Source of the DNA: Amphiura filiformis
Lineage: Eukaryota > Echinodermata > Ophiuroidea > Amphilepidida > Amphiuridae
Length of the DNA: 64,000 nucleotides
NCBI RefSeq assembly: GCF_039555335.1
Contig: NC_092628.1
Span: 36,354,965-36,418,964, forward strand
Direction: 5' to 3'
The notes under the pieces were generated by a model that was not told where the DNA came from, made no database searches, and saw nothing but the letters and a program-made list of their open reading frames with translations. Of the stretch, positions 6,001-43,485 are shown in pieces; position 1 is the first letter of the stretch; every line of letters starts with the position of its first letter. The position numbers and the translations under genes are program-made.

Positions 6001-6061
6001 AGGGACCGTTCACAAACACTTGTAAGGGGGGGGCCTGATGCAAAAGGGGGGGCCCTGAAAT

Positions 6062-8040: not shown

Positions 8041-8043
8041 TTT

Positions 8044-8175
8044 TAAACATGCTTAATCTTAATTACTTTTAGTATACGCAAAACCTCCAAAATCGGAGTT
8101 TTTGCGCCCGTCGCAAAACCTCCGATATTGGAGTTTTTGCGTATACTAAAAGTAATTAAGATTAAGCATGTTTAA
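8044..8175. repeat. 131-bp near-perfect palindrome where the array changes orientation
   Basis: Forward subrepeat sequence (AAACATGCTTAATCTTAATT...) meets its own reverse complement (...AATTAAGATTAAGCATGTTT). The arms are about 60 bp and the centre lies near 8110. Upstream subrepeats are all in one direction and downstream ones all in the other. Confidence 0.85.
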
Positions 8176-8860
8176 ACAATTTTTATAACATTAGTTTTGA
8201 TACGCAAAAACTCCGATTTTGGAGTTTTTGCGTATACTAAAAGTAATGAAGATAAGCATGTTTAAACAATTTTTATAACATTAGTTTTGATACGCAAAAA
8301 CTCCAATATCGGAGGTTTTGCGACCGACGCAAAAACTCCGATTTTGGAGTTTTTGCGTATACTAAAAGTAATGAAGTTAAGCATGTTTAAACAATTTTTA
8401 TAACATTAGTTTTGATACGCAAAACTCCAATATCGGAGGTTTTAGACGGGCGCAAAAACTCCGATTTTGGAGTTTTTGCGTATACTAAAAGTAATGAAGT
8501 TAAGCATGTTTAAACAATTTTTATAACATTAGTTTTGATACGCAAAAAACTCCAATATCGGAGGTTTTGCGATGGGCGCAAAAACTCCGATTTTGGAGTT
8601 TTTGCGTATACTAAAAGTAATGAAGATAAGCATGTTTAAACAATTTTTATAACATTAGTTTTGATACGCAAAACTCCAATATCGGAGGTTTTGCGACGGG
8701 CGCAAAAACTCCGATTTTGGAGGTTTTGCGTATACTAAAAGTAATGAAGTTAAGCATGTTTAAACAATTTTTATAACATTAGTTTTGATACTCCAATATC
8801 GGAGGTTTTGCGACGGGCGCAAAAACTCCGATTTTGGAGGTTTTGCGCACGCTGTGGTGG
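8176..8860 (-). repeat. Inverted array of the dyad subrepeat
   Basis: About six copies of the subrepeat in reverse orientation, repeating about every 120-128 bp, each with CGCAAAAACTCC and GGAGTTTTTGCG or close variants. Degenerate dyads continue to about 9000 with CGCAGAACCTCC variants. Confidence 0.8.
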
Positions 8861-18230: not shown

Positions 18231-18635
18231 GTATAGATGACCTAAACATGGATACCTTCACATGTGGAACATGTAGCACTGTCGTCACTGATCTTGATGC
18301 TTTCCTCAGCCATAAACAAATAGGTACCTGTACCCCTGAGTCCACAAAAACATGTGAAAAGGATTCTGCATCCATCCTATCTGCCTCTGATTATATTGCT
18401 ATTCCCACCAAAGCAACTGGGGAAGCCTCCAGAATTGACGTCTCTGAGGGCTCCACTGAAAATCATGTGACAATCATTGAAGTTATTGCTGTGGATGATC
18501 CAAATCCAGCTGCTATTGCTGTAGATAATCTCAATCCTGCTACTGCTGTTGCTGTAGATAATCTGAATCCTGCTACTGCTGTTGCTTGTGGTGATGAGAA
18601 GCAGGAGAAAGTTGTTTTGGTTGAGTCTACAAAAG
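18231..18635 (+). CDS. ZFAT: ZFAT-like gene, coding exon 1
   Basis: The exon is bounded by TTTCAG before 18231 and AAAAG|GTAGGC after 18635. An ATG at 18248 has A at -3 and G at +4. Using it, the five exons total a whole number of codons (about 1,245 residues after removing one surplus base in exon 2), so it is the likely start, although the frame stays open through the 17 upstream bases. The exon encodes a degenerate finger (FTCGTC...DAFLSHKQ...C) and an acidic, threonine-rich segment. An 11-residue repeat based on AVAVDNLNPAT occurs about 2.5 times (18500-18590). It ends in phase 1, matching exon 2. ZFAT is known as a nuclear DNA-binding zinc-finger protein. Linking this exon to exon 2 is inference from phase and order. 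Confidence 0.65.
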
Positions 18636-21155: not shown

Positions 21156-24033
21156 ACTCTACAAATGCACCTGTGATTTACGTATGTAATAACTGTGACA
21201 CATACTCTGCCTCTGTGGAAGAAATTACATCACACTGCACCCAACAACACAATGTTAGCTCAGACATCACCAACTATTACAAAAGCATCAAGCCTCTGAG
21301 TCAACAAAGTTATGCTTCCATGGGTTCAGATGTTACCATGGATCCAAAAGTCAAGAGGAAAAGAGGTAGACCACCAAAGAATTCAAGAGCCTCTTCTAAA
21401 CTTCTACAGTCAGCATCAGTTGTGGGGATTGGAAATGAGGCGATAGCAATTATGACTCTGGCGAATCAAGATGTAGCAGACGAGAAACCAAAACGTAAAC
21501 GTGGGAGGCCACGTAAAACTGATCAAGTACCAGCACCACTCCCTACACCTCCTGCAGGGGAGACAAAAATACAGGCAGATAAATGTCAAACTTCTTTGGA
21601 TGATGAGAATTTGATGTGTGGTAACTGCATGATGAAGTTTACTCGACTGAGACAGATGCATAGTCACAGATGCCTGGCTGATGATTCAGCAAAAGAATTG
21701 ACAGAACACGAAGCAGAAGAGTCTGATGATGACACCTCTGATATGAAAGTACCCCAAGAAAAGAAATCTAAAATCATTCAAATCAATGTGAGTGAAGAAG
21801 ACCAACTCAAAATAGAGAAGGAAATTAGTCAACATGAGATTCCCCAGTTTGTCAATGACAAAGCACCGGCACATCCTAGTAGCACCAAGTCCTCTTCTCT
21901 CAAAGTTTATACATGTCCTTATTGTGAGAAATTCTTCAAATTTAAACAGGGATGATTCATCATATACGCAGTACATACCGGATATAAACCATACAAGTGT
22001 CAACGGTGTAATTATGCATCCATAAGTAAAGGCAATTTGAAGATTCATGAGAGGAAACACACAGGAGAACGTTTTAAGTGCTCACTCTGTTCTTTTACAT
22101 GCATTAGTAAAGGTCACCTCAAAGTTCACAACAAATCACATAAGAAAATACGCATCATCTGCGAGTTATGCCACAAAAATGTGTACAACTTACCTAATTT
22201 GTTGCGTCACCTGCAAACTTCACATAGAATTGATAAGCCAGGGAAAGCTCAGAAATATTATGAGACAAAAAGAATGGAAAGCCGCGAAGGGCAGCGTTCA
22301 TTGTTGTTCCAATGCAATATTTGTATGAGGAAATTTAAGTCTAAACATTCTCATGATACACATTTGATGCTTCATCAAGATCAAAAACCTTTCCAATGCA
22401 GTATGTGCAATTACAAAACAGTCCGCCAACGATATTTGGACCAGCATTTTCAAAGACATCGTCAAGTGTACATTTGTTCTTATTGCAGTGAGAAACATTT
22501 AAGTATCCAACTTCTCACTGAGCATCTTCAATCCCACATGACTGTTGATAATGAACAAGATCAATGCTTCACTGACAGTATAAACTGTAGTATCTATTTG
22601 GCTGAAGTATTGGATCCAGAGCTTGAATCTGCTCATCTCAGCCGTGTAACATCAGGCGATCTTGATGCAACTTCAGTTGATTTCTTACAGGATACATCCA
22701 CTATGACATCTGACAATATCAATGGTAGCTTGAAATATGGCGGTGATGTCGTCACAGAAGAAGAGCTGAAACAGATTTTTGGAGTTGATCAATGTATGCT
22801 GATGTATAAGAAACTGAATAAATTCACCCTAGATGCAATACAAAAGCTTTATGGAGAGCTTGAGTGCAAGGTGTGTGGTAAACTTTTTATGTATAAGGCA
22901 TACTTGGATAATCATGCCAGGATTCATCAGGAAGAAAAAGAATTCAAATGTTTACATGAGAATTGTGATTATTCATCACATAGTCGAGAGAACTTGAAAA
23001 TACACAAAGAATGCACACATAGTGGCAGACAGTACAACTGTACTGAATGTGGTTTCCAGACAACAAGCAGTGTATATCTACAAAGTCATATGCGCAAAAC
23101 ATGTTATACCTGATGCCTTCAAATGCACACAATGTGATGCCAGGTTCGGAGGAACAGGATATCAAAATCATATTGTCGATAACCATCCTGGCATGCTGCA
23201 AGAGGAGATCGAACAAATAATTGGGAGAAGAACGCACATTTATCGCAAGCAAGGAAAGGAGTGGTTTCAGTGCAAGAATTGTGCTCAGAAATTCCATAAA
23301 ATTGCAGAACTTCGCCAGCATGTATGGATACATGAAGGTGTTGCACCTTATAAATGTGAAATATGTGGGCATGGTTCCAGAAACATGAGTAATCTCAAGT
23401 CACATATGATGCGACATTCTGACACAAAGACACACCTATGTGATGAGTGTGGGAAGGCATTCAAGACCAAAAACTCATTGAAAATACACAACTTGTCACA
23501 ACATGCTAACATTGGTCAAAACGACACTTCCAAAATGCTCCTTATGTGCAATCTATGTGATTTTACATGCGTTCAAAAATCACAACTGAAGAAGCACTGG
23601 GATATGCATGGAAAAATAAGACCATATAGGTGTGGTATTTGTATCCAGTATTTTTGCAACACTAAAAGTGGTTTGAGAAGTCATTACAGCAAGCAACACC
23701 CAGAAGTTGAATTTGATGAAACTTTGTTGCAAGATATGCAGGTACCTGAGGACACTGATAATGGATCACTTGAAACTATCACACAGTATAAATGTACACA
23801 GTGTGAAACTGTTTGTTCATCATATCACATTCTGGAAGATCACCTCCTCAAACAACATAATGTTGAGATAGCGGGGACAAGCAGTGAGGAGACGGCAGCA
23901 GGTGCTCTGATCCAAGCAGCAGCAATGGCAGAGAGTAGCAGTGAACAAGTTGTGACAGGTGACTCGGATTTACACATTAAACTACCCAGTAATAGTGCAG
24001 TACAACTTCTACAACAGATCATTAATATGCAAG
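21156..24033 (+). CDS. ZFAT: ZFAT-like gene, main zinc-finger exon (three 1-bp indels)
   Basis: Begins after TTTTACAG and ends AAG|GTAGGT, phase 1 at both sides. In order: finger 1 (YVCNNC, 21179); two AT-hooks, KRKRGRPPKN (about 21347) and KRKRGRPRKT (about 21487); a C2HC finger (LMCGNC, 21612); then about 17 C2H2 fingers from 21908 to 23860. A long spacer before LECKVCGKLF (22858) splits them into two groups. The finger order and linkers, such as YTCPYCEKFFKFK, FTCISKGHLKVH, YGELECKVCGKLF, HEGVAPYKC and SDTKTHLCDECGK, match vertebrate ZFAT closely, and LLQQII near the end matches its C-terminal region. Three frame breaks occur: a missing base near 21950, a surplus base near 21970 (together creating a TGA at 21953), and one extra A in the run at 23096-23099. 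Fingers 3 and 12 are affected. With these resolved the frame is open throughout, so assembly errors are likelier than pseudogenisation. Predicted nuclear transcription regulator. Confidence 0.9.
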
Positions 24034-25066: not shown

Positions 25067-25267
25067 GCCTAGGACATTTATCAAGTGGGAGTGAGAGTCA
25101 AGTCCAGATTCAGCTACCAATCCCAAATTCTATGAGTGAAGCTACTTCAGCAGGTGTGGAGAACTCTACAGTACCTGTGTATGCCATCAACGAAGACCAG
25201 GCTATGATTCATGCTGTAACAGAAGGAACAACTAGTCAGTCTGGAGTGTCTGAAGGACAAGAGCAAG
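25067..25267 (+). CDS. ZFAT: ZFAT-like gene, coding exon 3
   Basis: The acceptor TATTTGCAAG precedes 25067 and the donor GCAAG|GTAGGG follows 25267. Phase 1 at both ends, so it joins exon 2 (shared Gly codon) and the exon at 37087. It encodes GLGHLSSGSESQVQIQLPIP, a Ser/Thr-rich middle, YAINEDQAMIHAVTEGTTSQ and SGVSEGQEQ. There are no fingers. It corresponds by position to the glutamine- and valine-rich tail of ZFAT, but sequence similarity there is weak. The last 35 or so bases plus the donor are the first unit of the following minisatellite, so the true 3' boundary could be any of many equivalent donors. Confidence 0.75.
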
Positions 25268-28200
25268 GTAGGGCTACCGTACACAATGGTTTGCTAAAAA
25301 AAGCGCAGTGATTTATAGTCAGTCTGGAGTATCTGAAGGACAAGAGCAAGGTAGGGCTACCTTACACAATGGTGTGCTAAAAAAAGCACAGTGATTTATA
25401 GTCAGTCTGGAGTATCTGAAGGACAAGAGCAAGGTAGGGCTACCTTACACAATGGTGTGCTAAAAAAAGCACAGTGATTTATAGTCAGTCTGGAGTATCT
25501 GAAGGACAAGAGCAAGGTAGGGCTACCTTACACAATGGTTTGCTAAAAAAAGGCGAGTGATTTATAGTCAGTCTGGAATGTCTGAAGGACAAGAGCAAGG
25601 TAGGGCTACCTTACACAATGGTTTGCTAAAAAAAAAAAGCACAGTGATTTATGGTCAGTCTGGAGTATCTGAAGGACAAGAGCAAGGTAGGGCTACCTTA
25701 CACAATGGTTTGCTAAAAAAAGGCACAGTGATTTATAGTCAGTCTGGAGTATCTGAAGGACAAGAGCAAGGTAGGGCTACCTTACACAATGGTTTGCTAA
25801 AAAAAGGCGCAGTGATTTATGGTCAGTCTGGAGTATCTGAAGGACAAGAGCAAGGTAGGGCTACCTTACACAATGGTTTGCTAAAAAAAGGCGCAGTGAT
25901 TTATAGTCAGTCTGGAGTGTCTGAAGGACAAGAGCAAGGTAGGGCTACCTTACACAATGGTTTGCTAAAACAAAGCACAGTGATTTATAGTCAGTCTGGA
26001 GTGTCTGAAGGACAAGAGCACGGTAGGGCTACCTTACACAATGGTTTGCTAAAAAAAAGGCACAGTGATTTATAGTCAGTCAGGAGTGTCTGAAGGACAA
26101 GAGCAAGGTAGGGCTACCTTACACAATGGTTTGCTAAAAAAAAGCACAGTGATTTATAGTCAGTCTGGAGTATCTGAAGGACAAGAGCAAGGTAGGGCTA
26201 CCTTACACAATGGTTTGCTAAAAAAAGGCGCAGTGATTTATAGTCAGTCAGGAGTGTCTGAAGGACAAGCGCGCAGTAGGGCTACCTTACACAATGGTTT
26301 GCTAAAAAAAAAAGCACAGTGATTTATAGTCAGTCTGGAGTATCTGAAGGACAAGAGCAAGGTAGGGCTACCTTACACAATGGTTTGCTAAAAAAAGGCG
26401 CAGTGATTTATAGTCAGTCAGGAGTGTCTGAAGGACAAGAGCACGGTAGGGCTACCTTACACAATGGTTTGCTAAAAAAAAAAAAGCACAGTGATTTATA
26501 GTCAGTCTGGAGTATCTGAAGGACAAGAGCAAGGTAGGGCTACCTTACACAATGGTTTGCTAAAAAAAAGGCGCAGTGATTTATAGTCAGTCAGGAGTGT
26601 TTGAAGGACAAGAGCACGGTAGGGCTACCTTACACAATGGTTTGCTACAAGAGCAAGGTAGGGCTATATTGCACAATGTTTGGTTAAAAAAAAGCACAGT
26701 GATTTATAGTCAGTCTGGAGTGTCTGAAGGACAAGAGCAAGGTAGGGCTACCTTACACAATGGTTTGCTAAAAAAAAACACGGTGATTTATGGTCAGTCT
26801 GGAGTATCTGAAGGACAAGAGCAAGGTAGGGCTACCTTACACAATGGTTTGCTAAAAAAAAAAGCGCAGTGATTTATAGTCAGTCAGGAGTGTCTGAAGG
26901 ACAAGAGCAAGGTAGGGCTACCTTACACAATGGTTTGCTAAAACAAAGCACAGTGATTTATAGTCAGTCTGGAATGTCTGAAGGACAAGAGCAAGGTAGG
27001 GCTACCTTACACAATGGTTTGCTAAAACAAAGCACAGTGATTTATAGTCAGTCTGGAATGTCTGAAGGACAAGAGCAAGGTAGGGCTACCTTACACAATG
27101 GTTTGCTAAAACAAAGCACAGTGATTTATAGTCAGTCTGGAGTATCTGAAGGACAAGAGCAAGGTAGGGCTACCTTACACAATGGTTTGCTAAAACAAAG
27201 CACAGTGATTTATAGTCAGTCTGGAATGTCTGAAGGACAAGAGCAAGGTAGGGCTACCTTACACAATGGTTTGCTAAAACAAAGCACAGTGATTTATAGT
27301 CAGTCTGGAATGTCTGAAGGACAAGAGCAAGGTAGGGCTACCTTACACAATGGTTTGCTAAAAAAAAGCACAGTGATTTATAGTCAGTCTGGAGTATCTG
27401 AAGGACAAGAGCAAGGTAGGGCTACCTTACACAATGGTTTGCTAAAACAAAGCACAGTGATTTATAGTCAGTCTGGAATGTCTGAAGGACAAGAGCAAGG
27501 TAGGGCTACCTTACACAATGGTTTGCTAAAACAAAGCACAGTGATTTATAGTCAGTCTGGAGTGTCTGAAGGACAAGAGCAAGGTAGGGCTACCTTACAC
27601 AATGGTTTGCTAAAAAAAAGCGCAGTGATTTATAGTCAGTCTGGAATGTCTGTAGGGCTACCTTACACAATGGTTTGCTAAAACAAAGCACAGTGATTTA
27701 TAGTCAGTCTGGAGTATCTGAAGAGCAAGGTAGGGCTACCTTACACAATGGTTTGCTAAAAAAAGCACAGTGATTTATAGTCAGTCTGGAGTGTCTGAAG
27801 GACAAGAGCAAGGTAGGGCTACCTTACACAATGGTGTGCTAAAAAAAAGCACAGTGATTTATAGTCAGTCTGGAGTGTCTGAAGGACAAGAGCAAGGTAG
27901 GGCTACCTTACACAATGGTTTGCTAAAAAAAAAGGCGCAGTGATTTATAGTCAGTCTGGAGTGTCTGAAGGACAAGAGCAAGGTAGGGCTACCTTACACA
28001 ATGGTTTGCTAAAAAAAGCACAGTGATTTATAGTCAGTCTGGAGTGTCTGAAGGACAAGAGCAAGGTAGGGCTACCTTACACAATGGTTTGCTAAAAAAA
28101 GGCGCAGTGATTTATAGTCAGTCTGGAGTGTCTGAAGGACAAGAGCAAGGTAGGGCTACCTTGCACAATCGTTTGCTAAAAAAAAGCACGGTGATTTATA

Positions 28201-29025
28201 GTCAGTCTGGAGTATCTGAAGGACAAGAGCAAGGTAGGGCTACCTTACACAATGGTTTGCTAAAAAAAAAAAAGCGCAGTGATTTATAGTCAGTCTGGAG
28301 TGTCTGAAGGACAAGAGCAAGGTAGGGCTACCTTACACAATGGTTTGCTAAAACAAAGCACAGTGATTTATAGTCAGTCTGGAATGTCTGAAGGACAAGA
28401 GCAAGGTAGGGCTACCTTACACAATGGTTTGCTAAAAAAAGCACAGTGATTTATAGTCAGTCTGGAGTGTCTGAAGGACAAGAGCAAGGTAGGGCTACCT
28501 TACACAATGGTTTGCTAAAACAAAGCACAGTGATTTATAGTCAGTCTAGAGTATCTGAAGAGCAAGGTAGGGCTACCTTACACAATGGTTTGCTAAAAAA
28601 AGCACAGTGATTTATAGTCAGTCTGGAGTGTCTGAAGGACAAGAGCACGGTAGGGCTACCTTACACAATGGTGTGCTAAAAAAAGCACAGTGATTTATAG
28701 TCAGTCTGGAGTGTCTGAAGGACAAGAGCACGGTAGGGCTACCTTACACAATGGTTTGCTAAAAAAAGCACAGTGATTTATAGTCAGTCTGGAGTGTCTG
28801 AAGGACAAGAGCAAGGTAGGGCTACCTTACACAATGGTTTGCTAAAACAAAGCACAGTGATTTATAGTCAGTCTAGAGTATCTGAAGAGCAAGGTAGGGC
28901 TACCTTACACAATGGTTTGCTAAAAAAAAGCACAGTGATTTATAGTCAGTCTGGAGTGTCTGAAGGTCAAGAGCAAGGTAGGGCTACCTTACACAATGGT
29001 TTGCTAAAAAAAAAAAGGCGAGTGA
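25230..29025 (+). repeat. Exon-edge minisatellite, ~45 units of ~84 bp
   Basis: Consensus unit: GTGATTTATAGTCAGTCTGG, AGTGTCTGAAGGACAAGAGC, AAGGTAGGGCTACCTTACAC, AATGGTTTGCTAAAACAAAG, CACA. Units are usually 82-87 bp, differing mainly in the A run after TTGCTA. A few are shortened, for example near 26640, 27650, 27720, 28560 and 28885. Units of 84 bp keep a frame encoding VIYSQSGVSEGQEQ followed by GRATLHNGLLKQST, so open frames up to 270 residues arise (26869-27681). Every unit carries the exon 3 end and a GTAGGG donor. I regard it as an intronic expansion starting at the exon edge rather than as separate genes. Confidence 0.9.
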
Positions 29026-29314
29026 TTTTTATAGTGTGCTACGCTGGCACAACACCTAGACGTTAATCCACAAGCCTCAGCACACTTTACAGGTTGTTGC
29101 TGACCACTACGGGCTCCACATCATTCCATAAACCATTAAACAACAATTCAGGGACTTTGCTACTTCAAGAGCGCACACCCTAGACATTCCAACAAATAAC
29201 CATCGCAACCAGGATCAGCTCCCCGAGTTTCGTACGGGTTACAACGAGACAAATTAGCAGTAAGTTCCTTGTCTAGCTTGTCAAGCTAACTCAATTTTCC
29301 CACGAGCGCATTTA

Positions 29315-29388
29315 GGCACCGCCAGGTTCAAACCCGCAACCTCTCGCACCATAGTCGAATGCCTTATCGATTGAGCTAACTTGACTGC
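29315..29388 (-). repeat. tRNA-like SINE head, copy 1
   Basis: On the minus strand GTTAGCTCAATCGATAAGG is an A-box region and GGTTTGAACCT a B box, spaced as in a tRNA; the sequence ends GGCGGTGCC. Stem pairing is imperfect, so a tRNA-derived SINE end is more likely than a working tRNA gene. Copy 2 is at 36558-36632. Confidence 0.6.
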
Positions 29389-29843
29389 TAAGGGTGGGTA
29401 GGTATGGATAATAGACAGGCTTCTATGATGGCAATCTGTTACAGCATTATGTTTTAACAAGTTTGCTCTCAGACATACAAAGTTGTTAAGTTTTCTTCAC
29501 TTCTTCAGGACTTTGCAATGGCATAAAAACTGTAATAAAAGATGTATCATTCAACCTGCAGCACCTGAGCTTGGGACATTGAATCCTTGTCAGATGTGAG
29601 TCACAACAGATAGTGGTATATGAGTGTGTGACTAGAGGGGCTGATTAGAGGTAGAGGGGCAATTAATGCATAATGACTTGTAAAGCGCAATGATCTTAAT
29701 GTAATTGCGCTAAATAAATATGTGGGGTTGTTTTCTGTTTTTGCTTCTATTTTTTAACCTTAATTTTGTGAAGTATTTGCAAAGCTCTGGGACATACCAA
29801 AGGTCACAAAGTTGTTTGTCTTTATTTCTACCATGCATCATAG

Positions 29844-29972
29844 AAGGCTCATCAATAATGCAAGTACAGTTCCGTGTTGAAGATGGAGAGGTTGGACAGC
29901 AGATTTTATCACTCAAGGAGGCAGTGATGGGCAAACTTATGTTGAGGTCCCACCAGAGATGCAACAAGCTGA
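29844..29972 (+). pseudogene. ZFAT: ZFAT-like exon 4, copy 1, frameshifted
   Basis: Same boundaries as 37087-37216 (CATCATAG acceptor, GA|GTAAGT donor). The T run at 29904-29907 has four bases where the other copy has five. The frame breaks after FRVEDGEVGQQI and the conserved continuation (FITQGGSDGQTYVEV) is lost. This is either a decayed duplicate, an allele, or an error in a contig end. Confidence 0.8.
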
Positions 29973-30620
29973 GTAAGTGACCATAATGACCGCAAGGATG
30001 TTTTGAGATAATCAGTGATGGCAAATGATGCAGAAATAACCAAGTTGCAACCCTATTACTTTGTACACATCATGCATTCAGTAGCATTGCCAGCATGGGG
30101 CAGAGTGCCCCTGACAAAAAATAAAAGAGAAAATTAGTGCCCCTCGGACAAAAAATGAAAGAGAAAATTGGGAAGGGAAAAGAAAAAGAGCAAGGAGCCC
30201 ATTTTCCACCAAAATTCAGCCCGCTCATGGGCCAAAATAGTATAAAATACCAAATTTAGGGGGGAAAATAATGTAAATGCAATTTTTTTTATGCGCTTAC
30301 TTACGCATGCACATTTTCCCAATTAAGCCTTTGTGGAATCTCAAAGACTTGACATTTACAATCTCTTTAATAAAAACCAGGTATATCTAATACCAGGTTA
30401 ATTTTGCCCCCCTGATCAAGAAAGCTGGCTACATGCATGCATGCCTGCCATGAGTTTTCACTTTCCGTCAATATGGTTAAAGTTTACAATAGCAAGCTCC
30501 ATTGTCTGTGTGCACTCGCCATGATTGAACATGTTGAATAAGGTTATTGTCATGTGCACAAATTAATTGTGATTATTGCTAAACTTTCCTAACCAATCAT
30601 AAGCTTCCCATAGTTTCAGA

Positions 30621-31651
30621 TACAAGGGTCATTCAAAAGTTCTACCTCCATCATCATATCTCTGTTATCTTGGGTGCCAGCCAATTGAAAATACCCATGA
30701 TTATACTCTTAAATCTAGGCTACAAAATAAAAGTTATTTGATGAAGATATGTTGGTTAAAGCGAATACAGATTTGGTACATCGGAAACGGTTAAAAACTG
30801 AAGCCAAAAGTTTAGTACGCATCATATTGTAGCTTTGGATAATGTCCATAAAAATATTTTCAAGTTGTGGTTGTCCAACTGCTTACTCAGGATGAATATT
30901 TTCGCCATATTTGAGCTCCCTAATATGCATTGAGACTTCAAAACTAAATGAAACATGTTTTATATGAGATGAAACATGGAAGGGTTCAACAGACACACAA
31001 ATGTTAGTGAAATTTAGCAGATTTTGACTAAACTATGTTGAAGGGTAATTCATATTTATGTCTTATTTTAAGCAATGGATGCATCTTAACATGGAAATGA
31101 GATGAACAGTTTGTTAATAACCTTGAATATAATAACGAAATACAAAGACTTATTTGGTTTTAACTTATGAACCAATTAATATGACTTGAACCAACAAGTG
31201 CTGACCCGATCAAAGTCAACAACCTATTAAAAAGGGTCAATACGAGGCTAATCTAAACAAAATTCACGATACTCAGTAAAACTGTACTATCTGCAAGCAT
31301 TAGATATTGATTTAATTATCTTAACAAAAATTAAGCAATTTAATCATTTTCAGAAATAAGTCTAATGATTTCCAGTATTTTCCACATAAATGTTGGTGAC
31401 CTTTTTAATCAAAATTAGTCTTTCTTTTCAGACCGTTCCCGATGTACCAAATCGGTATTCACTTAAACCAACACTTCTTTTAAGATGTGTTAAAACAACC
31501 AAATTTCACAAATCACATTTTAATCAAATAACTTTTATTTTGTAGCCAAGATTTAAGAGCATAAGCATGGGTAATTTTAATATCCTGGCACGTAAGATAA
31601 CAGAGATGTGAATGTGATGATGGAGGTAGAACTTTTTGAATGACCCTCGTA
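30621..31651. mobile_element. Mariner-type TIR element, copy 1
   Basis: TA-flanked. The left end reads AAGGGTCATTCAAAAGTTCT then ACCTCCATCATCA. The right end is the reverse complement (…AGAACTTTTTGAATGACCCTC). Internal segments (AAATAACTTTTATTTTGTAGCC and GATGTACCAAATCGGTATTC) also pair across the element. 1.03 kb, no transposase frame. Confidence 0.8.
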
Positions 31652-31729
31652 TATACCAACTTTAGACCAATCACAGGACTGGTGTGATTCAGATCACCGA
31701 TATTAATAATATTCTGACTTGCTATTTCC

Positions 31730-32575
31730 TTGTTCAAACCACATTCAAATAGATATGAGTTATTTAGTTGGAAAAACTTCCTTAGTAGAGAAATTAAAAG
31801 GAAAACGAAAGGATGCCATGATAGATGGCTACAGGATATGTGTATCAAAGTTGACAATGCACACCAGGCAGCAAAGTCCAAGGAAGTGTATTCAACAATT
31901 AAGAAGATCACAAAGAAGTCAAGATCATCAGCAGAGTACCAAAGCAAATCAACATTAAAATAGATGAGAAACAACTTGTCCAGGTTAAAAAGTTCACCTA
32001 CCTGGGAGGAACAATCAGCCAACACGGATCCTGCACAGATGACATATAACTCCGAATAGGGAAAGAAATAGGGGCCGCTCAGAAACTTCAAAACATAGGG
32101 AATTCCAAGGACATCCAAACACATACCAAGACAGAGCTATACAAAGTCCTTGTCCTTTCAATATTGCTTTACGGAGCCGAGACCTGGACACTGAAGAAAG
32201 TCGATGAGGACAGAATCCTCGTCGTTGAGATGATGTGTTTAAGGAAGATATTGGGTGTCACAAGACTGGACAAAATCCGCAACACAGCAATCAGGAAACG
32301 CCTAGGTATAGAGCAATCTGTTGTCGATGGGGTAACTCAAAAAAGACTCTGCAAAGAATGACACCATCACGTTAGCCCAAACTACTGATTGATGCTCACA
32401 TCCAAGGGGACAGACCCAGAGGTAGACCACCTAAACAATGGCTAGATTGCATTAAGGCTGACTGCACCAAATTAAACCTGAAGTCTGTGGTGGTGGCTGG
32501 GCACCAATCCATAAACAGACAGAAATGGAGGACCATTGTGAAACCCCATGTTGGAGTGAACAGCATAGGTCAAGG
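31730..32575 (+). pseudogene. Internally deleted non-LTR (LINE) reverse transcriptase remnant, copy 1
   Basis: The plus strand encodes a linker-like stretch (WLQDMCIKVDNAHQAAKSKE, then YSTIKKITKKS), then directly the region after the RT catalytic core: KKFTYLGGTISQHGSC, KTELYKVLVLSILLYGAETW, MCLRKILGVTRLDKIRNTAI. A more decayed tail follows with PRGRPPKQWLDCIKADC-like residues. The RT fingers/palm and the endonuclease are absent. Stops and frameshifts interrupt it, for example near 31960 and 32047. The family is a LINE of the type whose C-terminus carries FTYLGG and LYGAETWT motifs; I do not assign a clade. Confidence 0.75.
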
Positions 32576-33539
32576 TAGGTCATTTAGTTGGAAAACAGGA
32601 TAAAATTGACCATTACTTTGAAACATAGTATCATCTGTTATGGCAAACTGTGGTCATCTAGCAATTTATCTTTTACTTGCCAACTATGTTTAGCACAAGT
32701 TTTCTGGAATAATTAATCCGGATTCTGGAATTATATAATTTTTATTTACATTTCCAGAATTGGATGATACAATAACATGTCAGAATATTATTAATTAGTC
32801 TGCTCTGCCATTGGTCTGTGATTGGTCTAAAGTTGATATATCACAAAAGAGTTTCTTTTTGGGGAAGGGGGTGATACCCCAGAGCATATTTCCTGATATC
32901 TCACATTCCCAAAATAATTAACAAGCAAGTACTTAGCTTGACATGCTCAATTTGTTTGCACTTTAATCATGATGTCACATTATTATTTATTCATTTTTGG
33001 CCCCCACATCCACCAGGCCTGGAAAAATGTGGAAAGTGGGAAGCTCCTGCCCGGAAATTTGGAAGTTTGAGGAAATTAATGTACTTAAGTAAAGAAATAC
33101 ATCAGAATTTTGAGGGAAATTTGGCTTTTGAAGGATATTTTGATCATCTTCCAGAGAAATTGTCATTTTTCCAGCCCTGACATCCACTCTGCAGCTTTAA
33201 TGCAGTAACCGATCAACTTTAGTGAATAGATGCGGTGCCCTGATGTGCTGTATAGATTTGTGTCATGCTATTTGCATATTTATGAATATTAATGAGCTTA
33301 TTTGTATATTTTTCCTACATTTGTCATTAATCCATTCTGCAGTTTAGTACAAAGACCAATCAACTTCATTATTATGTCTTCAGAATCTTGCATCCTATAC
33401 TTTGTACATAACCTGTCTGTCTGATAAATCTGTGTATCGGCTGTCCGATAAATTTGTGTATCGGTCTGTAACCTCTTTATAGAGTGCATAGTTCATATAC
33501 TTTATATACTAAAGTCACAATGTATGTCTTTTTTGGTGT

Positions 33540-33745
33540 GATTTTTTTGCCATACTATGACCAAAAATAACATTTTTTACCAAAAATCACATTTTCACCA
33601 AAAACCATTTTTTACCAAAATCACATTTTTACCAAAATCACATTTTGAGCAGATATCACAATTTTAAGCAGTCATGTTTTGACCAAAAATGTTTTCTACT
33701 GAAACTCTTTTTTAAACTAAAATTGTGTTTTTAACCAAAAAGATT
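33540..33745. repeat. Degenerate ACCAAAAATCACATTTTT repeats, block 1
   Basis: Repeated motif of about 17-20 bp built on ACCAAAAATCACATTTTT with variable A and T runs, more than eight degenerate copies. A second block follows at about 34020-34205. The same pair is present in copy 2 of the duplication. Confidence 0.75.
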
Positions 33746-33760
33746 CTGAAGACATAATAA

Positions 33761-33917
33761 TGATAAAATTGACGGATTCTTTCAGATGATACCTGAATTT
33801 ATCGATCTCGCTAGAGTTTTCAAATATCACGCTCGACTTTGTCTCGCATGATATTTGAAAACTCTAGCTCGACCGATAAATTCAGGTATCATGCTCAATC
33901 CGTCCAATTTTATATCA
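33761..33917. mobile_element. Hairpin element, copy 1a
   Basis: Starts TGATAAAATTGACGGATT and ends AATCCGTCCAATTTTATATCA. The inner arms GATACCTGAATTTATCGATC and CTAGAGTTTTCAAATATCA pair with GATATTTGAAAACTCTAG and GACCGATAAATTCAGGTATC. Noncoding. Confidence 0.85.
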
Positions 33918-34223
33918 GTATCGGTGTCTGATAAATTTGTGTATCGGTCTGTAACCTCTTCATAGTTCATATACTTTATATGCAAAAGTCACCATGTATG
34001 TCTCTTCCGGTTTGATTTTTTTTGCCATTTTGACCAAAATCATTTTTTGACCAAAAATCATATTTTTGACCATAAATCACATTTTTGACCAAAAATCATA
34101 TTTTTGAGCAGAAATCACATTTTTAATTTTAACAAAAATCACATTTTCTCATTTTCTACTAAAACTCGCTTTTTTTGCTCAAAATCATGTTTTTGACCAA
34201 AAAAGATTCTGAAGATATAATAA

Positions 34224-34347
34224 TGATAAAATTGATGGATATTTTTAGATGATACCTGAATTTATCGATCTCGCTAGAGTATATTTGAAAACTCGAGCTC
34301 GACCGATAAATTCAGGTATCATGCTCAATCCGTCCAATTTTATATCA
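34224..34347. mobile_element. Hairpin element, copy 1b
   Basis: A shorter version of the 33761 hairpin with the same ends and outer arms. About 30 bp of the inner stem is missing; the centre reads CTAGAGTATATTTGAAAACTC. Confidence 0.8.
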
Positions 34348-35302
34348 AACTTGGTATGGGGATTGGATATGTTAGCCTGAAGTGCTCTACAGTTGCAGTT
34401 TTATGTAATGTTATTTGCATTATATTAATGAGCTTATTTGTATATTTTGCCTATATTTCATTAATCCACTCTGCACTTATTTACACACCTTTGTGTGGGG
34501 GCCACCGCATAATTCTAGTTTTGAGGTAGTTGCAGTGCTATTATTTTAAAGACTTAACCTGATATCGGATTGGCCCGTTACATGCGTCCGGTAAAATATC
34601 GGATTGGCAGAAATTAGTTAATGCTTACCGATAATACAGTGAAAAAAGCAACCACAACAGTGAGATTTTTAATGCAGAAATTAGTCTTTTTACATATGAG
34701 AGTCTACTCCATCCTCGCAGGTTGCCCCTTTGATAGATATTCATCATTAGCTGAAGGAAAACATCATTGTAATGTAAATGAACATGATCACCGCAATTAA
34801 TATGCATAAAATTGGATTGGATACCGGCTGAGGACAAAAGTCATCTGGGCTTATTTTATGATTTAGATTCCATTTATTGCTCAAGTTATTTATATATCTA
34901 ATAATTTTTCAAACAATATGCCAATCTTCTGTGTACAAATAAAACATTGTATGTGGTATTGTGGTACATATGATTTTTCAACTTTCTCTCACAAGGAAAA
35001 ATACTAATGTTGACTTGAGAATATTAGCAACAGATGTACCCCTAGGCTGATATGGCAGGCCTAGATTTCGACGAGAATCACAGAATCGATTCTCGTAAGA
35101 TTCTTGCCAGAGAATCAACTTCTCTCATTGTATCATACAGTAAGTGCAGTGACTATGATGGATTTTGATTCTCGCAAACCAAGACGAAATTTAGGCCCTG
35201 TATGGGCCATTTTGGGATACAGGGGAAAGCTTACATGTATCCTAGGTTACCCTTCTCCTATCATCTCTTTTGCTTTGCATTATTTTTTTTTTTTTTTTTC
35301 AG

Positions 35303-35434
35303 ATTTCCATATCATCAGGAGATGAAGCCAACCTAAATACAATACAGCACCAGCAGCAGACCCAAGATGACACTACACAGGTTGCAATGCAGCAGGATTC
35401 CACTGATATCACAAATGTTGAAATACCGTCATAA
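35303..35434 (+). pseudogene. ZFAT: ZFAT-like last exon, copy 1, altered acceptor
   Basis: Encodes ISISSGDEANLNTIQ, a Gln/Thr-rich stretch and DITNVEIPS followed by TAA at 35432, as in copy 2. The acceptor region is different: the sequence TTTACAGAGTTGTTCAG of copy 2 is replaced by a long T run and CAG. Using that CAG gives a splice phase that does not fit the preceding exon. Either the poly-T region was misassembled or this copy is not functional. Confidence 0.7.
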
Positions 35435-35611
35435 GTCTGTTCTGTTGAAAATAGCTATATCATTGTCATTGATATGTAAAGCTTTTGACGGACAATTGAC
35501 CAAGAGTTGCAGGTACAACTCGCACAGACTAGCCATACTTGGGTTCACATTGAGCATGCTGTCAAATGGCCCTAGTACGCAATTTGTATACACTCTCTCT
35601 GTGGGATTAGG

Positions 35612-36081
35612 TTAAAGCCATATTATAACATTTGCTAAGGAGGACGCCCTCACTGATTTTTAAAATTCATTTTTTACACGATTATATTGTACTTTATTAA
35701 ACCAATATACCCTGCAAAAATCAAGACTCTAGGTGCTGTAGTTTTGTCAAAATCCAAGATTTTGAATAAAACGATGGAACCGGCGTTTTATTATTACGAT
35801 GGAATTATTAGTCGAACGCATACACGATGATCATAACACACAGTACGTACACGGCGTGCGGGACGGTGATCTACACAACAAAAGGTCATACCATAACATG
35901 ACCGAAGGAGTGGTACGTATTAGCGACATGTGGCCTGGTAGTAAATTAAAATTTACTTTGCTCTCCGTAGATGTTCGGCTCAAAAATAATAAAAGGGGAT
36001 ATATCTGACAGTAAAAACTAACATTTTATGGCAAAGAAATGCTAATCTATTTTGTATGAAAATGTTATAATATGGCTTTAA
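35612..36081. mobile_element. TTAA-flanked MITE, copy B
   Basis: Same 22-bp TIR as the 1172 element. 470 bp. It ends 13 bases before the assembly gap. Noncoding. Confidence 0.85.
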
Positions 36082-36094
36082 TTAGCATGCAAGA

Positions 36095-36294
36095 NNNNNN
36101 NNNNNNNNNNNNNNNNNNNNNNNNNNNNNNNNNNNNNNNNNNNNNNNNNNNNNNNNNNNNNNNNNNNNNNNNNNNNNNNNNNNNNNNNNNNNNNNNNNNN
36201 NNNNNNNNNNNNNNNNNNNNNNNNNNNNNNNNNNNNNNNNNNNNNNNNNNNNNNNNNNNNNNNNNNNNNNNNNNNNNNNNNNNNNNNNNNNNNN
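36095..36294. other. Assembly gap, 200 N
   Basis: Exactly 200 undetermined bases. The round number suggests a placeholder gap of unknown true size. Confidence 0.98.
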
Positions 36295-36557
36295 AACACC
36301 TAGACGTTAATCCACAAGCCTCAGCACACTTTACAGGTTGTTGCTGACCACTACGGGCTCCACATCATTCCATAAAGCATTAAACAACAATTCAGGGACT
36401 TTGCTGCTTCAAGAGCGCACACCCTAGACATTCCAACAAATAACCATCGCAACCAGGATCAGCTCCCCGAGTTTCGTACGGGTTACAACGAGACAAATTA
36501 GCAGTAAGTTCCTTGTCTAGCTTGTCAAGCTAACTCAATTTTCCCACGAGCGTACTA

Positions 36558-36632
36558 GGCACCGCCAGGGTTCAAACCCGCAACCTCTCGCACCATAGTC
36601 GAATGCCTTATCGATTGAGCTAACTTGACTGC
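36558..36632 (-). repeat. tRNA-like SINE head, copy 2
   Basis: Same as 29315-29388 but with a fuller B-box stem (GGGTTTGAACCCTGGCGG on the minus strand). Confidence 0.6.
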
Positions 36633-37086
36633 TAAGGGTGGGTAGGTATGGATAATAGACAGGCTTCTATGATGGCAATCTGTTACAGCATTATGTTTTA
36701 ACAAGTTTGCTCTCAGACATACAAAGTTGTTAAGTTTTCTTCACTTCTTCAGGACTTTGCAATGGCATAAAAACTGTAATAAAAGATGTATCATTCAACC
36801 TGCAGCACCTGAGCTTGGGACATTGAATCCTTGTCAGATGTGAGTCACAACAGATAGTGGTATATGAGTGTGTGACTAGAGGGGCTGATTAGAGGTAGAG
36901 GGGCAATTAATGCATAATGACTTGTAAAGCGCAATGATCTTAATGTAATTGCGCTAAATAAATATGTGGGGTTGTTTTCTGTTTTTGCTTTTTTTTTTAA
37001 CCTTAATTTTGTGAAGTATTTGCAAAGCTCTGGGACATACCAAAGGTCACAAAGTTGTTTGTCTTTATTTCTACCATGCATCATAG

Positions 37087-37216
37087 AAGGCTCATCAATA
37101 ATGCAAGTACAGTTCCGTGTTGAAGATGGAGAGGTTGGACAGCAGATTTTTATCACTCAAGGAGGCAGTGATGGGCAAACTTATGTTGAGGTCCCACCAG
37201 AGATGCAACAAGCTGA
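37087..37216 (+). CDS. ZFAT: ZFAT-like gene, coding exon 4 (intact copy)
   Basis: The acceptor CATCATAG precedes 37087 and the donor GA|GTAAGTGA follows 37216. It enters in phase 1 (joining the exon 3 end as a Glu codon) and leaves in phase 2. It encodes EGSSIMQVQFRVEDGEVGQQ, then IFITQGGSDGQTYVEVPPEM and QQA. The core resembles the tail of vertebrate ZFAT, which has a similar TQGG-containing stretch followed by VxVxE residues. Reading through the donor gives an immediate in-frame TAA (GAG TAA), so an unspliced form would end here. This makes a shorter C-terminus possible. Confidence 0.8.
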
Positions 37217-37863
37217 GTAAGTGACCATAATGACCGCAAGGATGTTTTGAGATAATCAGTGATGGCAAATGATGCAGAAATAACCAAGTTGCAACCCTAT
37301 TACTTTGTACACATCATGCATGCAGTAGCATTGCCAGCATGGGGCAGAGTGCCCCCTGACAAAAAATAAAAGAGAAAATTAGTGCCCCTCGGACAAAAAA
37401 TGAAAGAGAAAATTGGGAAGGGAAAAGAAAAAGAGCAAGGAGCCCATTTTCCACCAAAATTCAGCCCGCTCATGGGCCAAAATAGTATAAAATACCAAAT
37501 TTAGGGGGGGAAAATAATGTAAAATGCAATTTTTTTTTTGCGCTGCTATATGCACATTTTCCCAATTAAGCCTTTGTGGAATCTCAAAGACTTGACATTT
37601 ACAATCTCTTTAATAAAAACCAGGTATATCTAATACCAGGTTAATTTTGCCCCCCTGATCAAGAAAGCTGGCTACATGCATGCATGCCTGCCATGAGTTT
37701 TCACTTTCCGTCAATATGGTTAAAGTTTACAATAGCAAGCTCCATTGTCTGTGTGCACTCGCCATGATTGAACATGTTGAATAAGGTTATTGTCATGTGC
37801 ACAAATTAATTGTGATTATTGCTAAACTTTCCTAACCAATCATAAGCTTCCCATAGTTTCAGA

Positions 37864-38893
37864 TACAAGGGTCATTCAAAAGTTCTACCTCCATCATCAT
37901 ATCTCTGTTATCTTGGGTGCCAGCCAATTGAAAATACCCATGATTATACTCTTAAATCTAGGCTACAAAATAAAAGTTATTTGATGAAGATATGTTGGTT
38001 AAAGCGAATACAGATTTGGTACATCGGAAACGGTTAAAAACTGAAGCCAAAAGTTTAGTACGCATCATATTGTAGCTTTGGATAATGTCCATAAAAATAT
38101 TTTCAAGTTGTGGTTGTCCAACTGCTTACTCAGGATGAATATTTTCGTCATATTTGAGCTCCCTAATATGCATTGAGACTTCAAAACTAAATGAAACATG
38201 TTTTATATGAGATGAAACATGGAAGGGTTCAACAGACACACAAATGTTAGTGAAATTTAGCAGATTTTGACTAAACTATGTTGAAGGGTAATTCATATTT
38301 ATGTCTTATTTTAAGCAATGGATGCATCTTAACATGGAAATGAGATGAACAGTTTGTTAATAACCTTGAATATAATAACGAAATACAAAGACTTATTTGG
38401 TTTTAACTTATGAACCAATTAATATGACTTGAACCAACAAGTGCTGACCCGATCAAAGTCAACAACATATTAAAAGGGTCAATACGAGGGCTAATCTAAA
38501 CAAAATTCACGATACTCAGTAAAACTGTACTATCTGCAAGCATTAGATATTGATTTAATTATCTTAACAAAAATTAAGCAATTTAATCATTTTCAGAAAT
38601 AAGTCTAATGATTTCCAGTATTTCCACATAAATGTTGGTGACCTTTTTAATCAAAATTAGTCTTTCTTTTCAGACCGCTCCCGATGTACCAAATCTGTAT
38701 TCACTTAAACCAACACTTCTTTTAAGATGTGTTAAAACAACCAAATTTCACAAATCACATTTTAATCAAATAACTTTTATTTTGTAGCCAAGATTTAAGA
38801 GCATAAGCATGGGTAATTTTAATATCCTGGCACGTAAGATAACAGAGATGTGAATGTGATGATGGAGGTAGAACTTTTTGAATGACCCTCGTA
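37864..38893. mobile_element. Mariner-type TIR element, copy 2
   Basis: Counterpart of 30621-31651 with the same TA-flanked ends and minor indels. Confidence 0.8.
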
Positions 38894-38969
38894 TATCAAC
38901 TTTAGACCAATCACAGGACTGGTGTGATTCAGATCACCGATATTAATAATATTCTGACTTGCTATTTCC

Positions 38970-39815
38970 TTGTTCAAACCACATTCAAATAGATATGAGT
39001 TATTTAGTTGGAAAAACTTCCTTAGTAGAGAAATTAAAAGGAAAACGAAAGGATGCCATGATAGATGGCTACAGGATCTGTGTATCAAAGTTGACAATGC
39101 ACACCAGGCAGCAAAGTCCAAGGAAGTGTATTCAACAATTAAGAAGATCACAAAGAAGTCAAGATCATCAGCAGAGTACCAAAGCAAATCAACATTAAAA
39201 TAGATGAGAAACAACTTGTCCAGGTTAAAAAGTTCACCTACCTGGGAGGAACAATCAGCCAACACGGATCCTGCACAGATGACATATATACTAACTCGAA
39301 TAGGGAAAGAAATAGGGCCGTTCAGAAACTTCAAAACATAGGGAATTCCAAGGACATCCAAACACATACCAAGACAGAGCTATACAAAGTCCTTGTCCTT
39401 TCAATATTGCTTTACTGAGCCTAGACCTGGACACTGAAGAAAGTCGATGAGGACAGACTCCTCGCCTCTTTGAGATGATGTGTTTAAGGAAGATATTGGG
39501 TGTCACAAGACTGGACAAAATCCGCAACACAGCAATCAGGAAACGCCTAGGTATAGAGCAATCTGTTGTCGATGGGGTAACTCAAAAAAGACTCTGCAAA
39601 GAATGACACCATCACGTTAGCCCAAACTACTGATTGATGCTCACATCCAAGGGGACAGACCCAGAGGTAGACCACCTAAACAATGGCTAGATTGATTAAG
39701 TCTGTTAAACCTGAAGTCTGTGGTGGCTGGGCACCAATCCATAAACAGACAGAAATGGAGGACCATTGTGAAACCCCATGTTGGAGTGAACAGCATCGGT
39801 CAAGGTTGGTCATTT
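38970..39815 (+). pseudogene. Internally deleted LINE remnant, copy 2
   Basis: Counterpart of 31730-32575 with the same linker joined directly to the post-catalytic RT region. Differences include TGA in place of the Gly codon after SILLY (near 39416) and a small deletion near 39690. It is not functional. Confidence 0.75.
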
Positions 39816-40779
39816 AGTTGGAAAACAGGATAAAATTGACCATTACTTTGAAACATAGTATCATCTGTTATGGCAAACTGTGGTCATCTAGCAAATTATC
39901 TTTTACTTGCCAACTATGTTTAGCACAAGTTTTCTGGAATAATTAATCCGGATTCTGGATTTATATAATTTTTATTTACATTTCCAGAATTGGATGATAC
40001 AATAACATGTCAGAATATTATTAATTAGTCTGCTCTGCCATTGGTCTGTGATTGGTCTAAAGTTGATATATCACAAAAGAGTTTCTTTTTGGGGAAGGGG
40101 GTGATACCCCAGAGCATATTTCCTGATATCTCACATTCCCAAAATAATTAACAAGCAAGTACTTAGCTTGACATGCTCAATTTGTTTGCACTTTAATCAT
40201 GATGTCACATTATTATTTATTCATTTTGGCCCCCACATCCACCAGGCCTGGAAAAAATGTGGAAAGTGGGAAGCTCCTGCCCGGAAATTTGGAAGTTTGA
40301 GGAAATTAATGTACTTAAGTAAAGAAATACATCAGAATTTTGAGGGAAATTTGGCTTTTTGAAGGGATATTTTGATCATCTTCCAGAGAAATTGTCATTT
40401 TTCTAGCCCTGTCATCCACTCTGCAGCTTTAATGCAGTAACCGATCAACTTTAGTGAATAGATGCGGTGCCCTGATGTGCTGTATAGATTTGTGTCATGC
40501 TATTTGCATATTTATGAATATTAATGAGCTTATTTGTATATTTTTCCTACATTTGTCATTAATCCATTCTGCAGTTTAGTACAAAGACCAATCAACTTCA
40601 TTATTATGTCTTCAGAATCTTGCATCCTATACTTTGTACATAACCTGTCTGTCTGATAAATCTGTGTATCGGCTGTCCGATAAATTTGTGTATCGGTCTG
40701 TAACCTCTTTATAGAGTGCATAGTTCATATACTTTATATACTAAAGTCACAATGTATGTCTTTTTTGGTGTGATTTTTT

Positions 40780-40985
40780 TTGCCATACTATGACCAAAAA
40801 TAACATTTTTTACCAAAAATCACATTTTTCACCAAAAACCATTTTTTTACCAAAAATCACATTTTTTACCAAAATCACATTTTGAGCAGATATCACAATT
40901 TTAAGCAGTCATGTTTTTGACCAAAAATGTTTTCTACTAAAACTTTTTTTTAAACTAAAAATTGTGTTTTTAACCAAAAAAAGAT
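40780..40985. repeat. Degenerate ACCAAAAATCACATTTTT repeats, copy 2
   Basis: Counterpart of 33540-33745. A second block lies at about 41270-41445. Run lengths differ from copy 1. Confidence 0.75.
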
Positions 40986-41001
40986 TCTGAAGACATAATA
41001 A

Positions 41002-41159
41002 TGATAAAATTGGACGGATTCTTTCGTATGATACCTGAATTTATCGATCTCGCTAGAGTTTTCAAATATCACGCTAGACTTCGTCTCGCATGATATTTGA
41101 AAACTCTAGCTCGACCGATAAAGTCAGGTATCATGCTCAATCCGTCCAATTTTATATCA
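41002..41159. mobile_element. Hairpin element, copy 2a
   Basis: Counterpart of 33761-33917, with the full stem and the TGATAAAATTGGACGGATT end. Confidence 0.85.
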
Positions 41160-41465
41160 GTATCGGTGTCTGATAAATTTGTGTATCGGTCTGTAACCTC
41201 TTCATAGTTCATATACTTTATATGCAAAAGTCACCATGTATGTCTCTTCCGGTTTGATTTTTTTGCCATTTTGACCAAAAATCACATTTTGACCAAAAAT
41301 CATATTTTTGACCATAAATCACATTTTTGACCAAAAATCATATTTTTGAGCAGAAATCACATTTTTAATTTTTAACAAAAATCACATTTTCTCATTTTCT
41401 ACTAAAACTCGTTTTTTTGCTCAAAATCATGTTTTTGACCAAAAAAGATTCTGAAGATATAATAA

Positions 41466-41589
41466 TGATAAAATTGATGGATATTTTTAGATGATACCTG
41501 AATTTATCGATCTCGCTAGAGTATATTTGAAAACTCGAGCTCGACCGATAAATTCAGGTATCATGCTCAATCCGTCCAATTTTATATCA
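41466..41589. mobile_element. Hairpin element, copy 2b
   Basis: Counterpart of 34224-34347 with the shortened inner stem. Confidence 0.8.
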
Positions 41590-42565
41590 AACTTGGTATG
41601 GGGATTGGATATGGTAGCCTGAAGTGCTGTACAGTTGCAGTTTTATGTAATGTTATTTGCATTAATATTAATGAGCTTATTTGTATATTTTGCCTATATT
41701 TCATTAATCCACTCTGCAGCTTAAACCTTATTTACACACCTTTGTGTGGGGGCCACCGCATAATTCTAGTTTTGAGGTAGTTGCAGTGCTATTATTTTAA
41801 GACTTAACCTGATATCGGATTGGCCCGTTACATGCGTCCGGTAAAATATCGGATTGGCAGAAATTAGTTAATGCTTACCGATAATACAGTGAAAAAAGCA
41901 ACCACAACAGTGAGATTTTTAATGCAGAAATAGTCTTTTTACATATGAGAGTGTACTCCATCCTCGCAGGTTGCCCCTTATCGACAGGGGTTTGATAGAT
42001 ATTCATCATTAATTAGCTGAAGGAAAACATCATTGTAATGTAAATGAACATGATCACCGCAATTAATATGCATAAAATCGGATTGGATACCGGCTGAGGA
42101 CAAAAGTCATCTGGGCTTATTTTATGATTTAGATTCCATTTATTGCTCAAGATATTTATAAGTTATTTATATATCTAATAATTTTTCAAACAATATGCCA
42201 ATCTTCTGTGTACAAATAAAACATTGTATGTGGTATTGTGGTACATATGATTTTTCAACTTTCTCTCACAAGGAAAAATACGAATGTTGACTTGAGAATA
42301 TTAGCAACAGATGTACCCCTAGGCTGATATGGCAGGCCTAGATTTCGACGAGAATCACAGAATCGATTCTCGAAGATTGCCAGAGAATCAACTTCTCTCA
42401 TTGTATCATACAGTAAGTGCAGTGACTATGATGGATTTTGATTCTCGCAAACCAAGACGAAATTTAGGCCCTGTATGGGCCATTTTGGGATACAGGGGAA
42501 AGCTTACATGTATCCTAGGTTACCCTTCTCCTATCATCTCTTTTGCTTTGCATTATTTTTTACAG

Positions 42566-42707
42566 AGTTGTTCAGATTTCCATATCATCAGGAGATGAAG
42601 CCAACCTAAATACAATACAGCACCAGCAGCAGACCCAAGATGACACTACACAGGTTGCAATGCAGCAGGATTCCACTGATATCACAAATGTTGAAATACC
42701 GTCATAA
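42566..42707 (+). CDS. ZFAT: ZFAT-like gene, last coding exon (intact copy)
   Basis: The acceptor TTTTTTACAG precedes 42566. The first base completes the split codon of exon 4 (phase 2), giving Glu. It encodes VVQISISSGDEANLNTIQ, HQQQTQDDTTQVAMQQDS and TDITNVEIPS, then TAA at 42705. The stretch is polar and glutamine-rich, with no domain I recognise. With this exon the coding total is divisible by three from the ATG at 18248, which supports the exon chain. A possible polyadenylation hexamer AATAAA lies at about 43039, inside the downstream MITE. Confidence 0.7.
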
Positions 42708-42884
42708 GTCTGTTCTGTTGAAAATAGCTATATCATTGTCATTGATATGTAAAGCTTTTGATGGACAATTGACCAAGAGTTGCAGGTACAACTCGCACAG
42801 ACTAGCCTTACTTGGGTTCACTTTGAGCATGCTGTCAAATGGCCCTAGTACGCAATTTGTATACACTCTCTCTGTGGGATTAGG

Positions 42885-43354
42885 TTAAAGCCATATTATA
42901 ACATTTGCTAAGGAGGACGCCTCACTGATTTTTTAAATTCATTTTTTACACGATTATATTGTACTTTTATTAAACCAATATACCCTGCAAAAATCAAGAC
43001 TCTAGGTGTTGTAGTTTTGTCAAAATCCAAGATTTTGAATAAAACGATGGAACCGGCGTTTTATTATTACGATGGAATTATTAGTCGAACGCATACACAA
43101 TGATCATAACACACAGTACGTACACGGCGTGCGGGATGGTGATCTACACAACAAAAGGTCGTACCATACCCATGACCGAAGGAGTGGTACGTATTGGCGA
43201 CATATGCGCTGGTAGTAAATTCCAATTTTCTTTGCTTTGCCGTAGATGTTCGGCTCAAAAATAATAAAAGGGATATATCTGACAGTAAAACTAACATTTT
43301 ATGGCAAAGAAATGCTAATCTATTTTGTATGAAAATGTTATAATATGGCTTTAA
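42885..43354. mobile_element. TTAA-flanked MITE, copy C
   Basis: Same 22-bp TIR as the 1172 and 35612 elements; 470 bp. It lies about 180 bp after the ZFAT-like stop codon and may be part of the 3' UTR. Confidence 0.85.
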
Positions 43355-43485
43355 TTAGCATGCAAGATTCTTATCAAATTGATAAATTAGTTGTGGACCA
43401 GTTAAAGCAGGGGTTCTCAATAGGCACGCCCGCAAGTTAGATCCGGCTTGCCAACCAATACAGGTCTTTGAAATGAAATATAAAA

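Follow-up and report, generated by a model that had tools for sequence, protein, structure and literature searches.

How is an exon spliced when copies of its own donor site follow it, again and again, through the intron? This question is raised by a 64,000-nucleotide stretch of the Amphiura filiformis genome (contig NC_092628.1 of assembly GCF_039555335.1, positions 36,354,965 to 36,418,964, forward strand; here called the window), in which a minisatellite begins inside exon 3 of a gene resembling ZFAT and continues into intron 3. Most likely this array is a "mirage" minisatellite, i.e., a tandem duplication across the exon 3/intron 3 boundary that would normally be removed together with intron 3.

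Anatomy of the repeat array

The array occupies positions 25233 to 29035 of the plus strand, as delimited by Tandem Repeats Finder (which placed the end at 29013), cutting at the donor sites, and direct reading (which placed it at 29035), and contains 45 repeats of an ~84-bp unit. Both limits are formed by TAGT, at 25233 in exon 3 and at 29032 to 29035 in the intron. Exon 3 (25067 to 25267, plus strand) is a coding, ZFAT-like exon of 201 nt that, judged by frame and splice signals, is entered and left in phase 1. Its native donor, GTAGGGCTA at 25268 to 25276, is the first of 46 such sites in the array, the last of which starts at 28978; the other 45 are repeats, and none of the intervals between sites is large enough to conceal a missing one. 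An approximately 45-fold repetition of the exon 3 end with its GTAGGG donor, as proposed in an initial annotation of this DNA, is thus borne out. The array does not start at the exon edge, as had been proposed there, but 35 nt within exon 3, and these last 35 exon nucleotides are the first, partial repeat copy.

The proposed unit length of 84 bp is the modal one and holds exactly for only 22 of the 45 intervals. The remainder measure 83 bp (10 intervals), 86 and 78 bp (3 each), 85 and 88 bp (2 each), or 87, 68 and 39 bp (1 each), the first unit being 83 bp long. Among the 43 full units, i.e., with the 39- and 68-bp units and unit 46 at the right edge left out, mean pairwise identity is 95.4% and the least similar pair shares 84.5%. 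A 24-mer spanning the donor occurs exactly 34 times in the array and never in 100 shuffles, and an exact 24-mer scan of viral contigs gave no matches. The repeats carry uninterrupted A runs of 7 to 12 nt, and the units differ by distinct base substitutions and include deletion variants 39, 68 and 78 bp long. No significant higher-order arrangement of units was found; the longest identical blocks comprise two units. One part of the array, 26830 to 27678, holds an open frame of 283 codons. Coding by the whole array was considered and rejected despite this stretch, since frames elsewhere break with the length of the A runs.

Donors, acceptors and reading frame

GTAGGG is kept at all 46 sites and the longer AAG/GTAGGG at 39, with ACG preceding the junction at five and a poor context at -3 to -1 at two. 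Using human splice-site frequencies, AAG/GTAGGG scores 5.42, a value reached by only 7 of the 3,080 other plus-strand GTs in the window outside the array (0.23%). These seven include the exon 2 donor (24034) and a GT at 25154 within exon 3, which at 5.84 scores above the native donor. Predicted U1 pairing amounts to -9.7 kcal/mol at 39 of the 46 sites. Across the 43 full units, 24 of 76 columns vary and the six GTAGGG columns do not (P = 0.09 by chance). Since the units are alike throughout and the invariance of these six columns lies within chance, there is no sign of selection on the donor.

Most of the repeat donors are able to form a predicted GUAGGG/CCUUAC hairpin, and their mean predicted opening energy is 4.16 kcal/mol versus 2.74 kcal/mol for the native donor, which is the most open of the 46 (rank 1) and stays so with three other flank lengths. 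A degree of closure equal to the array mean is seen in 11.7% of 300 GTs sampled from the window, and one equal to the native donor in 41%. When the repeat base was placed in the native donor context, the opening energy moved merely from 2.74 to 2.94 kcal/mol. A segment of three repeats (units 21 to 23) folded no better than its shuffles (z 0.37). Masking of the repeat donors by hairpins, with the native donor escaping, was therefore rejected as the main cause because the base change in unit 1 accounts for 0.2 kcal/mol; as the swap shifts the energy so little, the openness of the native donor probably stems mostly from its position beside unique exon sequence.

Skipping of the native donor would let the frame of exon 3, as assembled, run through GRATVHNGLLKKAQ into a TGA at 25309 to 25311 (plus strand) in unit 1, as found by frame listing and joined translations. 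Donors 2, 3, 6 and 46, the four tried out of 45, gave this same early stop when joined to exon 4, and it should apply to all downstream donors because it sits in unit 1. The stop results from unit 1 being 83 bp long, one base short of 84, and it precedes donor 2 by 39 nt and donors 3 and later by at least 122 nt. The suggestion that donor choice among units is simply redundant thus fails for the sequence as assembled.

Each unit had also been proposed to carry CACAG ahead of a 42-base cassette encoding VIYSQSGVSEGQEQ. Unit 17 has no acceptor position; at the 45 positions that exist we found CACAG 30 times, CGCAG 11 times, GCGAG twice, and CACGG, which lacks an AG, twice, so that CACAG is far from universal. 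The cassette length stood up better, with 40 of 44 cassettes being 42 nt long, three 36 nt and one 26 nt, than did the peptide, which is exactly VIYSQSGVSEGQEQ in 24 of 44 and has M in place of V in 7. As exon 3 begins and ends in phase 1, a 42-nt insert would indeed be a symmetric phase 1-1 exon. The 43 AGs of the array score -10.5 at best (median, -11.8) with the human-frequency matrix, compared with 1.2 for exon 3's own acceptor and -1.9 for that of exon 4, and the median is equalled or beaten by 93.5% of the window's 3,032 other AGs. This agrees with the earlier remark that an A run in place of a pyrimidine tract argues against efficient acceptor use. The introns implied in the 44 units that have one would measure 41 to 46 nt and lack a pyrimidine tract. 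Because the array acceptors are this weak, the cassettes look unusable. Variable columns are spread evenly over the full units (12 of the 42 cassette columns versus 12 of the 34 columns on the intron side, the A run dropped; Fisher p = 0.62), giving no indication of selection on the cassette. With no selective keeping of donor or cassette seen, a recent origin or homogenisation of the array is explanation enough.

Origin, splicing outcome and competing readings

The exon sequence ending in AACTAGTCAG and the intron sequence ending in TTATAGTGTG have TAGT in common, and the 44 internal unit junctions (unit 17 is without the stretch) read TATAGTCAG in 41 cases and TATGGTCAG in 3. A shared stretch of at least 4 bp at this distance occurred at 454 of 18,600 sampled junctions (2.4%). 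This suggests, without proving, that a microhomology duplication founded the array. A single founding event would have used as microhomologies the TAGT lying 35 nt within the exon and the TAGT ~50 nt into the intron, and slippage and unequal exchange may then have expanded it to 45 units. Through exon definition, the exon 3 acceptor would be paired with the first donor (25267/25268), which would be joined to exon 4 at 29844, the remaining array being excised with the putative intron 3 (25268 to 29843, plus strand; acceptor TTTATTTCTACCATGCATCATAG). The downstream donors are good U1 sites by prediction but would be mostly silent. Their occasional use would give an extended exon 3 ending after GRATVHNGLLKKAQ, and cassette exons would arise hardly or not at all for lack of acceptors.

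Minisatellites of this type have been described in amphioxus. The mirages in Adh3 and in a globin gene, many units of which bear splice signals, are reported to leave regular splicing undisturbed (PMC3087553; PMC3902484). The two BflGb6 haplotypes have 6 and 3 repeat units and BflGb9 has a duplicate (PMC3087553); PGBD5, with a triplication of 3 x 108 bp, and TnC are further examples (PMC3902484). As in these, the unit studied here spans an exon/intron boundary (35 nt of the presumed exon plus the intron start) and splice signals are kept in many units (GT in 46 of 46, AG in 43 of 45). Its 45 copies exceed the 2 to 6 units reported for BflGb6, BflGb9 and PGBD5. As far as anatomy goes, the locus is a mirage, and a large example of the repeat type known from amphioxus.

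The human gene 6-16 (IFI6/G1P3) has a minisatellite of ~26 copies of a 12-bp unit at an exon end, with donor shifts staying in frame. This minisatellite reportedly gives multiple splice donor sites (Turri et al. 1995). There, too, the minisatellite supplies repeated splice donors, whereas the unit here is 84 bp long and downstream donors meet a stop in the frame as assembled. In human segmental duplications, internal tandem repeats that lie at exon-intron boundaries can change gene structure; they average four 30-bp units, and some reportedly give rise to novel introns (PMC2812944). The present array shares their position at an exon-intron boundary and differs in having an ~84-bp unit in 45 copies. 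With 45 near-identical donors beside one native site, the locus offers a natural experiment on how the spliceosome chooses among equal sites.

Several points weigh against the mirage reading. The splicing outcome, origin and neutrality are inferred, and the human frequencies behind the splice-site scores may not suit this animal. Two hallmarks of mirages were not apparent: adjacent units resemble each other no more closely than units in random order do (173 of 1,000 shuffles were as low), and unit 1 at the edge, with 3 substitutions, is not the most diverged, units 12 and 18 having 6. The exon 4 acceptor is itself poor, as 25.8% of the AGs in the window score as high. With 39 of 46 donors sharing a native score that so few other GTs reach, some downstream use is likely. 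Finally, given the frame lesions in the first contig (see below), a one-base homopolymer error could have made unit 1 83 bp long and so produced the stop.

Downstream use also underlies an unlikely alternative, namely that it rises with copy number and yields early-stop transcripts, so that array length tunes the output of the ZFAT-like gene from each allele. The equal strength of 39 of 46 donors speaks for it, as does the position of the stop, which under the 50-nt rule for mRNA decay would make most of these transcripts decay targets. Amphioxus mirages are nevertheless reported to splice normally, and most repeat donors are prone to hairpins and predicted to be less open than the native one, even though the unit 1 base explains little of the difference. 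We regard as quite improbable a related model in which the native donor has as rivals about forty U1 sites of nearly equal strength, the repeat number of an allele sets the share of early-ending mRNA, and rare usable acceptors add VIYSQSGVSEGQEQ blocks toward the C terminus.

It is highly improbable that units are included as variable 42-nt exons, as had been envisaged, to give a C-terminal region of variable length. The symmetric phase, the 43 of 44 cassettes of 42 or 36 nt, and the AG at 43 of 45 positions would fit; the acceptors, which the human-frequency matrix places toward the bottom of all AGs in the window, the very short introns without a pyrimidine tract, and the absence of any conservation bias toward the cassette half do not. 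Just as remote is an assembly artefact, be it a wrong copy number, wrong unit lengths or a consensus expansion. A contig joint with an apparent allele overlap lies 7 kb downstream, the contig that holds the array has frame lesions, and the A runs differ in length (7 to 12); yet the distinct substitutions and the deletion variants would be unexpected from pure consensus expansion, and a single contig crosses the array and reaches unique sequence at either end.

Host gene, assembly and remaining window

Upstream of exon 3 lie a coding exon counted as exon 1 (18231 to 18635, plus strand; donor AAAG/GTAGGC, 5' limit set by a preceding TTTCAG) and exon 2 (21156 to 24033, plus strand), which is ZFAT-like and encodes an AT hook upstream of C2H2 zinc fingers. 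The donors of exons 1 to 3 share AAG/GTAGG, followed by C, T and G, respectively. The exon 3 frame continues from the exon 2 donor CAAG/GTAGGT (24034) and enters exon 4 after CATAG. In the first-contig copy of exon 4 (29844 to 29976, plus strand), a run of four Ts shifts the frame and leaves the TAA at 29974 out of frame; the run has five Ts in the copy at 37087, which the TAA ends. Exon 3 joined to this second copy translates as ...TSQSGVSEGQEQ-E-GSSIMQVQFRVEDGEVGQQIF....

The ZFAT-like label given initially is supported but not proven by sequence comparison. The zinc-finger exon matched the ZFAT fingers of structure 2rsi with an E value of 1.2e-25 in one stretch (among 141 distinct sequences), and an AT hook is present; two ZNF568 chains, matching in four stretches each, rank above 2rsi. 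The overall gene plan presumably resembles that of human ZFAT. A literature search for invertebrate orthologs of the ZFAT zinc fingers found no paper. The TAA after QQAE (29973 and 37217) overlaps a GTAAGT with a score of 0.56, matched by 6.9% of the GTs in the window, and given this GTAAGT a further exon might follow exon 4. A 33-bp in-frame coding repeat (AVDNLNPAT) at 18484 to 18586 in exon 1 is a second repeat in the gene.

The only gap in the window is a scaffold gap of 200 N at 36095 to 36294. The sequence at 29051 to 36094 recurs collinearly at 36295 to 43367 (plus strand; BLAST, 97.6%), and the ~7.1-kb match on each side runs precisely to the edge of the gap. Aligned with MAFFT, the two copies differ by 104 mismatches over 7,009 aligned positions and by 41 indels, of which 21 fall in homopolymers. 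From this comparison, the copies are most likely two alleles of one locus placed end to end; a true duplication, with its second array lost in the gap, is a less likely alternative. The start of the second contig corresponds to 29051, ~15 bp beyond the 3' end of the array; this contig covers no array of its own, as if the array had broken it. Within the zinc-finger exon, one finger is interrupted by an in-frame stop (21953 to 21955) and the frame changes near 23095, so the first contig either has consensus errors or represents a damaged allele, and these frame lesions call for caution with the A-run lengths in the array. For annotation, a gene model built across the allele overlap would contain exon 4 twice. 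False introns have been described to arise where spliced alignments join repeats, including tandem ones (PMC10632439).

Elsewhere in the window, no tRNA genes or Rfam families were matched at default thresholds. By eye, fragments at 32050 to 32358 and 39143 to 39415 resemble the end of a non-LTR (long terminal repeat) retroelement reverse transcriptase; the former has no Pfam match at E 0.001. An uninterrupted reading frame of 1,554 codons at 57944 to 62605 on the minus strand likewise has no Pfam match at E 0.001. Clusters of ~124-bp repeats with CGCAAAA...TTTTGCG stretches lie in both orientations at 6058 to 8847.
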